The translations under genes and the position numbers were made by a program. A stretch of DNA of 64,000 nucleotides from NCBI RefSeq assembly GCF_003143775.1, contig NZ_QFRJ01000002.1:454501-518500 (forward strand). The letters run 5' to 3'. The stretch is from Brumimicrobium oceani. GTDB taxonomy: Bacteria > Bacteroidota > Bacteroidia > Flavobacteriales_D > Crocinitomicaceae. Shown piece by piece: positions 9,581 through 28,201 of the stretch (positions are counted from its first letter, which is position 1; every line of letters starts with the position of its first letter). The notes beneath the pieces are model-generated. The model saw nothing but the letters and a program-made list of their open reading frames with translations. It was not told where the DNA came from and searched no databases.

Positions 9581-9765
9581 AGTGTCTAATCAAGCGGCGA
9601 ACTGACAAGATCCTTCGCAAATTTCTATTTTCAACAAATTGAAAAAGAAATTTTCTTCAGGATGACATTAGGCTAGGGGCATATTTCAAAGGAGAGGGAA
9701 AACCGTTTTCTATTGTAATTTATTGAACTGCTGGTAAAGTTCCCGACAAGCATTATCATTAAAAA
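9581..9765 (+). repeat. Composite element, core-deleted copy
   Basis: The sequence from CTAATCAAGCGGCGAAC through GACAAGATCCTTCGCAAATT, AGGATGACATTAGG and CTAGGGGCATATTTCAAA matches the reverse complement of 26090-26210. The sequence from 9697 onward (TTTTCTATTGTAATTTATTG, then CTGGTAAAG and CGACAAGCATT) matches the reverse complement of 25890-25953. Relative to the 26-kb copy, the central hairpin and flanks are missing. Confidence 0.8.
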
Positions 9766-24510: not shown

Positions 24511-25065
24511 TTATTTTTCGTCTTCTTTTTTTGCTTCTTCAGCAGCTTCTACAACTGGATCAGCTTCTGGAGTTGGAACCGGAGTTTCAGCCTCTTCTTC
24601 TACCTCTGGTGCATTTTTCGCAGCAATTGCAGCAGCTCTTTCCTCGTTTGTTTTACGCTCTGCAGCTAAACGATCCGCCTCTGCTTTTTTCATTGCATCT
24701 GAATGACCTTCAGTTTTCGCAGTAATTTTAGCTCCTTTATCATTCAACCATGCTTCAAATTTCTTTTCAACATCAGCCTCTGTTAAAGCTCCTTTTGCTA
24801 CACCTTTGATCAAGTGATTTTTGTATAATACACCTTTGTACGAAAGAATCGCACGCGCTGTATCAGACATTTCAGCACCTGTACCAACCCATGTTAATGT
24901 TCTGTCGAAATCGATATCGATTGTCGCAGGGTTTGTGTTTGGGTTGTAAGTACCTAATTTCTCGATGAAACGTCCATCACGTGGAGCACGTGAGTCTGCT
25001 ACTACTACGTGGTAAAAAGCATAACCTTTTTTACCGTGTCTTTGCAATCTAATTTTTGTTGCCAT
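24511..25065 (-). CDS. rpsP: 30S ribosomal protein S16 with acidic C-terminal extension
   Basis: Residues 1-85 are a canonical S16 ([40 protein letters not shown]). The protein is 184 residues, about twice the length of E. coli S16. The extra part is a helical linker rich in Ala/Lys/Glu and then a Pro/Glu/Val-rich acidic tail ([20 protein letters not shown]). Such extensions are common in Bacteroidota S16. It leads the rpsP-rimM operon, with a -7 box and a leader hairpin upstream. Confidence 0.96.
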
Positions 25066-25132: not shown

Positions 25133-25324
25133 GTTCTTTATTTTTATAAATGAAAAATTATAAATGAAAAGTGAAAAATGCATTTCAATAATTTAGGTCA
25201 GTTTTAAAAGTTGGGGATTAAGTTTTTTCTTGACTAAGAATCCCTGTTTAAAAATTGGTCTTATCATATATTGAGTCAATCTTTTAGACTTTGTAAAAGA
25301 TGAAGTGCATGAAAGAACAAGACT

Positions 25325-25424
25325 AAAGCGTTCCCACAAGAAATACCACAAAGTAGCAAATTAGGTAAATAAAGCGTTCCCGAAATACCTAAAGCGTTCC
25401 CACAAGATATAATCTTGTGGGAAC
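25325..25424. repeat. AAAGCGTTCCC direct repeats ending in a 13-bp hairpin
   Basis: AAAGCGTTCCC begins at 25325, 25371 and 25391. The last copy opens GTTCCCACAAGAT-ATA-ATCTTGTGGGAAC (25396-25424), a perfect 13-bp stem with a 3-base loop, followed by TTCTTTTTATT, which could act as a plus-strand terminator. Confidence 0.75.
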
Positions 25425-25739
25425 TTCTTTTTATTTCTCGGTCTAGTTCCACATCGACAAGCTACAAGAAAACTTATAGCTAAAAGTCGATCTTGATTCG
25501 AAATGAAGCATAAATTCAAAAAATCTTGACGTGATTTTACTTGTAATTGACGTGTGGATATTAGCTGGCCATTGTTTTATGATATAGCATATCCCCACAA
25601 ATTTAATGTGACCCAATAATTTTCAATATATCCTGTTCGATAATAATTTAGATTGTGTCTTTAAATATGGAGGTTATTCAATAACGGCAGAATGACGAAG
25701 TCATGGTGGTGTTTTCTCGACCTTAAATACCTAAATCTA

Positions 25740-25782
25740 TCATCCCGACAGAGTGCAACGACGAGTGATCTCTTTTTAGATC
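25740..25782. repeat. REP-like fragment (TCATCCCGACAGAG...)
   Basis: TCATCCCGACAGAGTGCAAC followed by GACGAGTGATCTC and an AGATC partner resembles dispersed TCATCCCGA...GATCTC repeats seen in other Bacteroidota. Only one copy is in this window. Confidence 0.35.
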
Positions 25783-25879: not shown

Positions 25880-26243
25880 TTTTAAAGCTAAATGCTTGTC
25901 GAGAGCCTTACCAGCAATTTAATAAATTACAATAGAAAATGGTTTTCTTTTAAATTTGACAAGATCCTTCCATTGTTGAAAATCATAATTTTCAACAATG
26001 ATCAGGATGACAGTTGTGGGAGTTAGTGGGCAAACGAGAGGAAAAACAAAAGCGCTCTGGCGCTTTTGTTTTTTTCCTCTCGTTTGAAATATAGCCCTAG
26101 CCCAATGTCATCTTGAAGTAAATTTCTTTTTCAATTTGTTGAAAATAGAAATTTGCGAAAGGATCTTGTCGGTTCACCGCTTAACCACATACTTGATTAG
26201 ATACATTTACTGGTAAAGTATCGGATAGGCATTTAAAGCTAAT
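25880..26243. repeat. Composite inverted-repeat element of about 364 bp
   Basis: Imperfect arms (about 25880-26055 and 26060-26243) meet at a TCTG loop. The innermost 24 bp per arm (AAACGAGAGGAAAAACAAAA then GCGC) pair perfectly except for two extra T. Farther out, both arms carry GACAAGATCCTT, GATGACA, TTACCAG or CTGGTAA, and a TTTAAAGC end. Inside the left arm is a further palindrome, CATTGTTGAAAAT-CATA-ATTTTCAACAATG (25971-26000). No coding capacity. Confidence 0.8.
26032..26086. terminator. Long hairpin core, possible bidirectional terminator
   Basis: AAAAGCGC-TCTG-GCGCTTTT is followed by GTTTTTTT on the plus strand and GTTTTT on the minus strand. The minus-strand ABC-F gene ends 226 bp upstream of it, so this may be that gene's terminator. 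Confidence 0.45.
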
Positions 26244-26311: not shown

Positions 26312-28201
26312 TTAAGCAAACTCAGCCAGCTCCATCCATCTTTCAGTTTTCGCTTCCAACTCAATCATCAATTCACCAATGCGTTTACTCGCTTCGTTTA
26401 ATTCTTCAGATGTTGACGTTCCTCCAGATAAGATTGCTGTTAACTCCTCTTTTTCAGTTTCAAGTTTTTCGATTTCTGAATCCAATGTTTCAAATTCATT
26501 CTTCTCTTTAAAACTTAATTTTCTTTTTGCTTCTGTTTGAACTGATTTTTCAACCTTTTTTTCAACGGGTACTTTTGCTGCTTCTGCTTTTTCTAACCTT
26601 TTTTCGGCTTGTTCCTCGAGAATTTCTTTCTTTAAATTCTGGCGATAAACAGTATAATTCCCAGTGATGTCTTTGATATTGGCATCCCCTTCGAAAACGA
26701 AAATATGATCCACCATTTTATCCATGAAATAACGATCATGCGAAACCACAATCAAACATCCTTGGAAATTCTTTAAATAATCTTCCAAAACACTCAAGAT
26801 GTAAATATCCAAGTCGTTAGTTGGCTCATCCAGAATCAAAAAGTTGGGATTAGACATCAAAACTTTCATCAGTTTCAGTCTGCGTTGCTCTCCTCCACTC
26901 AATTTGTAAACATAGTTGTGGTGCATATGGCGCGGAAAAAGAAACTTTTCGAGGAAGTGTGCAGCAGACATTTCTCTACCTTTTTCTAAAGGTATAAACT
27001 CCGCTACATCGCGAATTACGTCGATTACTTTCATATTTTCATCCACTTCGATGTTGGCTTGAGAATAATAACCAAAAACAACCGTGTCTCCAACGACTAC
27101 CTTACCCGAGTCTGGAGCCTCCTCACCCATAATAATTCGTAATAGTGTTGATTTACCCACTCCATTTGGCCCTACAATTCCCAAACGCTCCTGTCGCTTG
27201 AATGTATAAGTTAAATTGTCAAGAATATTTAAGTTTGGATAGCTTTTAGAGACTTTGTGCAATTCCAAAATCTTAGAACCTAAACGTTCCATTTTGATTG
27301 GAATTTCAAGCTCTTCCTTCTCTATGTTCTGACTCGCTGTTTTCTTGATTCCTTCAAAAGCATCTGTCCTTGCTTTTTGTTTTGTTCCTCTGGCCTTAGG
27401 TTGTCGCCTGATCCATTGTAATTCTGATTTGAATAAACTCCTGGCTTTTCCAACCTCAATGGCTTTGTTTTCTTCACGTTCGGCTTTCTTTTCTAGATAA
27501 TAAGAAAAATTACCTTTGTAACGGTAGATTTGCTCGTCTTCTAATTCATAAATGATGTCGGTAATAACCTCCAAAAAATAACGATCATGCGTTACCATGA
27601 ATAAAGTAGAATTCGACTTTGAAAGATACTCTTCCAACCATTCAATCATGTCTAAATCCAAGTGGTTGGTAGGCTCATCCAAAAATAAAAAGTCGGGTTC
27701 TGAGATTAAAACTTTTGCCAGAGCTACTCGTTTTCGTTGACCTCCAGAAAGCGTTGATATTTTCGCTTCATGATTATCTAGTTTTAATTTAGACAAAACT
27801 TGTTCTACCAAACTATCTAAATCCCAAGCATTCAATTCTGAAATTTCCTCAAAAAGTTCTGCCATCGCCAATTCGTCATTTTCTCGAACAGCTTTAGAAT
27901 ACTTTTTAAAAACGTTTAATTTCGGTAAATCATGATCAAAAATTTCTTCGTAAATCGTGTTTTCTGGATTCAAGTCATCCGCCTGTTGTAAATAAGCGAT
28001 ATTAATTCCATTTCGAAAAACCACTCTCCCACTATCAAAAGGCTCTTCGCCCATGATGCAACGGATTAAAGTTGATTTCCCACTTCCATTTTTGGCTACT
28101 AGGGCAACTTTCTGACCTTGGTCTATACCAAAACTTAAATCTTCAAAAATCGTACGGTCTGCATACGTTTTGGTTAATTGTTCAACTGATAAATAATTCA
28201 T
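26312..28201 (-). CDS. ABC-F family ATP-binding protein (Uup-like)
   Basis: A cytoplasmic protein of 629 residues with two ABC domains and no membrane segments. Walker A motifs are KNGSGKST (residues 38-45) and GPNGVGKST. Signatures are LSGGQRKRVALAKVL and LSGGEQRRLKLMKVL. Both Walker B motifs are followed by the ABC-F type LDEPTNHLD and LDEPTNDLD. The inter-domain linker carries the PKARGTKQKARTDAF segment. The C-terminal 100 residues form a coiled coil as in Uup. Members act on ribosomes or DNA-associated processes. It overlaps the DUF4293 stop by one base. Confidence 0.93.
   Translation of the reverse strand: MNYLSVEQLTKTYADRTIFEDLSFGIDQGQKVALVAKNGSGKSTLIRCIMGEEPFDSGRVVFRNGINIAYLQQADDLNPENTIYEEIFDHDLPKLNVFKKYSKAVRENDELAMAELFEEISELNAWDLDSLVEQVLSKLKLDNHEAKISTLSGGQRKRVALAKVLISEPDFLFLDEPTNHLDLDMIEWLEEYLSKSNSTLFMVTHDRYFLEVITDIIYELEDEQIYRYKGNFSYYLEKKAEREENKAIEVGKARSLFKSELQWIRRQPKARGTKQKARTDAFEGIKKTASQNIEKEELEIPIKMERLGSKILELHKVSKSYPNLNILDNLTYTFKRQERLGIVGPNGVGKSTLLRIIMGEEAPDSGKVVVGDTVVFGYYSQANIEVDENMKVIDVIRDVAEFIPLEKGREMSAAHFLEKFLFPRHMHHNYVYKLSGGEQRRLKLMKVLMSNPNFLILDEPTNDLDIYILSVLEDYLKNFQGCLIVVSHDRYFMDKMVDHIFVFEGDANIKDITGNYTVYRQNLKKEILEEQAEKRLEKAEAAKVPVEKKVEKSVQTEAKRKLSFKEKNEFETLDSEIEKLETEKEELTAILSGGTSTSEELNEASKRIGELMIELEAKTERWMELAEFA

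Follow-up and report, generated by a model that had tools for sequence, protein, structure and literature searches.

A mirrored repeat of Brumimicrobium oceani as a probable IS1595-type MITE carrying a three-hairpin interior

With regard to its ends, the element described here most resembles the ISHwa6-related MITE of Haloquadratum walsbyi, an IS1595-type element of 165 bp with 25-bp inverted repeats and 8-bp direct repeats (PMC3852290). Both are non-autonomous, with inverted repeats of about 25 bp, IS1595-type ends, and an 8-bp duplication, but the element from B. oceani is 343 bp long, has an interior of three hairpins, resides in a Flavobacteriales host, and has ends reading AATGC, not GG. 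The dinucleotide GG is common at IS1595 ends.

With regard to its interior, the closest relatives are the CGTC/TGTC-tagged REPs, which combine a tag with a stem that begins with AT, occur mostly as head-to-head pairs, and have no known dedicated transposase (PMC3733652). The unpaired (C/T)GTC tag, the stem starting with AT, and the head-to-head placement all recur here. Unlike those REPs, which have stems of 8 to 9 bp and loops of 4 to 5 bases, the stems of hairpin 1 are mostly 13 to 20 bp; furthermore, the stems are AT-rich and the pair flanks a long, near-perfect hairpin. The neisserial intergenic mosaic elements (NIMEs) are built from RS units with dRS3 repeats (PMC3898611), dRS3 being the CGTC-1 of the REP survey (PMC3733652). 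Like NIMEs, the cassette described below assembles variable short units and inverted tagged palindromes into intergenic arrays, a resemblance of layout only; unlike NIMEs, it has no dRS3 (ATTCCC-N8-GGGAAT), its palindromes being of other sequence, and the unit that it encloses is always a near-perfect hairpin. To our knowledge, the cassette also has no link to a phage integrase, unlike NIMEs. Finally, SPRITE is a terminator-like MITE, and QMITE2 has 7- to 9-bp direct repeats and terminal inverted repeats (TIRs) of 23 to 29 bp (PMC10969869); these are structured MITEs as well, in different hosts, and resemble ours in description.

Taken as a whole, the locus is best explained as an IS1595-type MITE, moved in trans, that carries a three-hairpin cassette not derived from an insertion sequence (IS), a reading to which we assign a probability of about 0.85. 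As a MITE it is of an ordinary sort. What is unusual is the cassette that recurs, whose function we infer.

Boundaries and fold of the window copy

The window is the whole 64-kb stretch of DNA that was analyzed (G000:C12:454501-518500), taken from a 3.85-Mb draft genome. Within it, the element is flanked by two minus-strand genes, named from a reading of their translations: an ABC-F gene, whose end is at 26312, and rpsP, whose start is at 25065. An exact 8-bp direct repeat, TAAAGCTA, lies at 25883-25890 and again at 26234-26241, so the element proper spans 25891-26233 (plus strand, 343 bp); these limits were set by 43 TIR-paired copies and their target-site duplications (TSDs). The TIRs are 24 bp each: AATGCTTGTCGAGAGCCTTACCAG at 25891-25914 on the plus strand and, reading inward on the minus strand, AATGCCTATCCGATACTTTACCAG at 26210-26233.

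Between the TIRs, two GTC-tagged palindromes stand head to head and flank a long hairpin. The first palindrome (25958-26013, minus strand, head to the core) comprises the tail AAGGATCTTGTC, a hairpin at 25971-26000 with a perfect 13-bp stem and a 4-base loop, and the GTC tag TCAGGATGACAG at 26002-26013. The core hairpin (26031-26086) is 56 bp long, has the loop tctg, and is terminator-like on both strands; in this copy A5 is set against T7, leaving an uninterrupted stem of 14 bp versus 26 to 28 bp in the other full copies. The second palindrome (26106-26170, plus strand, head to the core) comprises the GTC tag TGTCATCTTGA at 26106-26116, a hairpin at 26120-26154, and the tail AAGGATCTTGTC at 26159-26170. 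The stem GACAAGATCCTT is present in both arms, at 25958-25969 and 26159-26170.

A preliminary description of this DNA had proposed two arms of mirrored modules meeting at a four-base loop, with a further palindrome inside one arm. The mirrored modules and the loop are present as proposed, except that the module called the TTTAAAGC end is not mirrored, being a direct repeat that corresponds to the TSD. The palindrome inside one arm is real on the left, and the right arm has one too, at 26120-26154, which is less perfect. The same description held the element to be noncoding, and no open reading frame (ORF) of at least 60 aa occurs within it. Folding, which had been suggested as a check, gave structures far more stable than shuffled sequences on both strands: −138.1 kcal/mol on the plus strand (z = −12.6) and −126.6 kcal/mol on the minus strand (z = −10.8), with 0 of 100 shuffles equally stable in either case.

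Other repeats share this neighborhood. Positions 25195-25614 hold an unrelated MITE-like element of 420 bp with the ends AGGTCA../GGGTCA.. and the 8-bp duplication AATAATTT; it has four near-full copies in the same genome, and at another locus (L062) a copy is inserted within a copy of the IS1595-type MITE, with the duplication GAAATATG. A relic of a CGTC-tagged cassette lies at about 25685-25775, and its relatives are arrayed in tandem in the corresponding gap of the congener G003 (L034). An AT-rich short repeat, AAATGAAAAATTATAAATGAAAAGTGAAAAAT, at 25149-25180 is repeated across many of the family's genomes and is found in tandem upstream of rpsP in genome G002.

A dispersed family with IS1595-type ends

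That the repeat is a non-autonomous mobile element, as the preliminary description had suggested, is well supported by its copies, TIRs, duplications, and empty site and by the IS1595-type partner described below. The family comprises about 50 to 60 copies in the host genome. A search with the element matched about 45 places (101 pieces), including eight near-full-length copies that are identical or 89 to 92% identical, along with a second subfamily at 73 to 82% identity. A TIR pattern had 66 + 74 matches in this genome versus 9 + 14 in the reversed control, and a stricter version had 56 + 53 versus 0. Pairing of inward-facing ends yielded 43 elements of 168 to 749 bp, with a mode at 343 to 347 bp (14 lie at 340 to 347 bp); the 749-bp element contains a second element, elements of the shorter classes are missing at least the core, and in a class of 203 to 204 bp two hairpins are fused at a common TTTTCAA. 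The window itself holds a second, deletion-bearing copy (9592-9764, minus strand), in which element positions 1-68 are joined to 192-303 and the right end is lost. At another locus (L077 1190-1550; C12:158405-158747), a copy has its middle inverted relative to both ends, and its TSD matches at 7/8 positions.

A perfect 8-bp TSD flanks 20 of the 43 end-paired elements, compared with an expectation of 0.4% from mismatched flanks, and at least 7 of the 8 positions are identical in 31. Flank identity at this length averages 0.84 versus 0.50 for mismatched flanks, and lengths of 4 to 7 and 9 to 12 bp gave no peak and at most one perfect case among the 43. The target sites are AT-rich, and all 43 elements lie outside ORFs. 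Of the 43, 13 are in convergent gaps, which account for about 15% of the intergenic sequence (P = 0.007), the background being a small one drawn from a single 64-kb window with rough ORF calls. In the congener G001 (G001 to G009 are all Brumimicrobium), the gap between the ABC-F gene and rpsP measures 205 bp, compared with 1,246 bp in the host, and the element is absent, an empty site that is not base-precise because the flanks have diverged; some congeners have the element and others do not. Being short, devoid of a transposase gene, bounded by TIRs and TSDs of fixed length, dispersed in intergenic copies, and missing from a relative's site, the window element is a MITE. Its copies are 8 to 25% diverged, so its activity is not recent.

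The preliminary description had also suggested an assembled cluster of hairpin elements, and it took arms that are independent REP insertions, without other genomic copies, as speaking against its reading. A cluster of hairpin elements is partly borne out: both palindromes resemble free-standing tagged repeats elsewhere in the genome, and REP-like tagged palindromes recur together with a hairpin as a unit. Independent REP insertions that lie in mirror order by chance, however, are refuted, with a residual chance that we regard as negligible, by the occurrence of the whole ordered unit of 343 to 347 bp at many loci, each with its own duplications.

The question of what moves the MITE was approached through its 24-bp ends (AATGC..TATC..ACTTTACCAG). 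A degenerate end pattern run against 84,980 species genomes returned 16 stretches, and the relatives that share these ends are Brumimicrobium. At one locus (L148), two such ends face inward 1,053 bp apart and enclose a 321-aa ORF; this 1,053-bp IS (L148/L161), whose duplication at L161 is degraded to 5/8, has the same ends as the MITE. A protein search within the family added further elements. One (L163) is an intact IS of 1,054 bp, with a 24/24 inverted repeat (AATGCTTGTCGTAAACTTTACCAG), a 326-aa ORF, and a perfect 8-bp duplication (TTATAAAA); another (L154) is a decayed relative. Altogether, MITE-type ends are common to the ISs with a DDE_Tnp_IS1595 transposase at L148/L161, L154, L162, and L163. 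The IS ORFs pass the curated cutoffs of Pfam PF12762 and NCBIfam NF033547, the IS1595 family. E. coli IS4 begins AATGCC; IS4-family transposases (PF01609) were considered as movers and rejected, as none of 28 loci had MITE ends. The MITE duplication length of 8 bp is the value typical of the IS1595 family (PMC8101967).

The MITE and the ISs at L161 and L163 have only their terminal 33 to 34 bp in common, which argues for IS ends joined to a foreign interior over a simple internal deletion, and the MITE looks to have been assembled in this manner. In the host's own draft assembly, no intact IS1595 with MITE ends was found; a single decayed IS1595 is present, 41% identical, with other ends (AATGCTTCCCCG) and the duplication AAACTTAA. 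Given the state of this sole copy, we infer mobilization in trans from the shared ends: a DDE transposase of the IS1595 family, provided in trans, would recognize the 24-bp ends and insert the element into AT-rich intergenic DNA, generating the 8-bp duplication. The draft assembly may hide intact copies, and the MITE is probably either idle now or dependent on an IS that has been lost or left unassembled.

The tagged cassette outside the MITE

Each arm of the MITE contains a palindrome tagged TGTCATYCTGA, and the tags face each other over the core. Of 247 Bacteroidota genomes sampled, 65 contain the motif GTCATYCTGA-[8-38]-GAAGRATCT (one match in the reversed control). Judged by reading the listed places, its Y and R positions covary (C with G, T with A) with four exceptions, and the interior varies freely. 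A search for head-to-head tags 78 to 108 bp apart returned 74 sites across six Brumimicrobium genomes, compared with none in the reversed control.

We measured 58 cassettes, 52 of them from Brumimicrobium; because the six from outside the genus were chosen partly for a visible hairpin, only the 52 constitute a test. All 52 of these tag pairs, from six genomes, enclose a hairpin of 17 to 29 bp; the set includes a few neighbors from tandem arrays and, in G005, one relative of the MITE (L295). Across the full 58, every stem reaches at least 17 bp, with 39 perfect stems and 49 different ones; the stem score averages 19.8, compared with at most 8 for shuffled interiors. By contrast, among one pair from each of 29 other Bacteroidota genomes, outside the family, only 3 had a long hairpin and 26 scored 8 or less, and the 3 all belong to a single family (f34) distant within the phylum.

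Cassettes also occur in repeats that lack MITE ends and have other flanks (the copies in G004), and in G003 a tandem cassette array lies beside rpsP, in the gap corresponding to that of the window element. The G003 cassettes carry CGTCAT, and the palindromes inside the MITE carry TGTCAT. A literal search for the tag sequences in open-access papers returned only unrelated papers, and no description of the enclosed hypervariable hairpin was found in open-access text.

These observations raise the possibility that the cassette itself is the functional or mobile unit, much as NIMEs are in Neisseria, with the IS1595 ends serving as one vehicle only. The layout without MITE ends in six Brumimicrobium genomes, the 49 distinct stems, the distant family that shares the layout, and the breadth of the tag motif would all be in keeping with this. 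On the other hand, the boundaries and duplications of the window copy fit IS1595 ends exactly, and it may be that the cassettes spread solely as parts of larger repeats, leaving us doubtful of this alternative while taking it seriously. We offer in the same tentative spirit, as an idea that may well prove wrong, that a self-standing Bacteroidota cassette has been adopted by mobile repeats with unrelated ends, its core being renewed by arm copying; if so, hairpins of any sequence would stay perfect, one arm serving as template for its partner. As for the IS1595-type MITE, exact ends and duplications allowed a mirrored repeat to be assigned to a transposase family, and its interior is a three-hairpin module that can be reused, its near-perfect stems differing widely in sequence. 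What spreads GTC-tagged palindromes is now open to experiment, as are the means by which long palindromes are kept perfect in the genomes of bacteria.

Pairing and arm copying in the hairpins

RNAalifold missed the core, where the alignment slips, so each copy had its stems measured separately. Over the 12 full copies covered in this way, 299 of 312 core-stem positions are Watson-Crick paired; shuffling the right arms among copies lowers this to 242, and 0 of 20,000 shuffles reached 299. This pairing holds across eight different core sequences. The arms have lengthened on both sides in step (A6/T6, A7/T7, A8/T8), and the loops occur in both orientations (tctg/caga and tcta/taga). In five copies of hairpin 1, the block TCAGGAT has become AAGGAT, equal to the opposite arm, and in some of them a private substitution is mirrored too; in hairpin 3, a block likewise matches the opposite arm in two copies of different subfamilies. 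A further copy (C35:102505) matched a loose pattern for symmetrized copies and was rejected on reading.

Block copies and loop flips characterize intrastrand template switching at quasi-palindromes. The copied arms and flipped loops seen here suggest template switching in DNA over selection on RNA, and we propose that arm-to-arm switching of this kind would keep the stem paired as its sequence drifts. The preliminary description had allowed for a long structured RNA, and a functional RNA whose stems are held paired by selection would account for the very stable fold on both strands and for the paired changes between MITE copies. This now seems very unlikely. An excess of G-T mispairs in the MITE traces to a single mispair in hairpin 3 that the copies of one subfamily have in common, and mispairs in the cassettes (10 G-T, 6 A-C, and 10 transversions) show no clear strand bias, which gives no indication of selection at the RNA level; moreover, the multi-base arm copies and flipped loops fit DNA-level copying, the core stems are wholly different between cassettes, and no Rfam family scored over its threshold.

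Judging from its sequence, the core hairpin is most likely a bidirectional intrinsic terminator. Termination in both directions would make insertion near the 3′ ends of genes tolerable. The A-run and T-run of such a terminator are present in 38 of the 58 cassette hairpins and lacking in 20. Selection for a terminator or a cruciform could explain the symmetry of the stems by itself, with no copying between arms, and the 38 hairpins with runs on the two arms and the enrichment of insertions in convergent gaps are points in its favor; indeed, template switching and selection for a hairpin on two strands are predicted to yield similar stems. We nonetheless find selection alone rather unlikely, as it leaves unexplained the multi-base block seen in hairpin 1 of five copies, which is identical to the opposite arm and in some of them mirrors a private substitution, and the block copy of hairpin 3 in two subfamilies.

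Cassette hairpins seem to break draft assemblies, and the module is therefore probably underreported. Two contigs of the host assembly, C31 (L198) and C35 (L199), end inside a cassette hairpin, and at a further locus (L092 2470-2780) a long perfect cassette hairpin coincides with an assembly blind spot, appearing as a contig end or as N.
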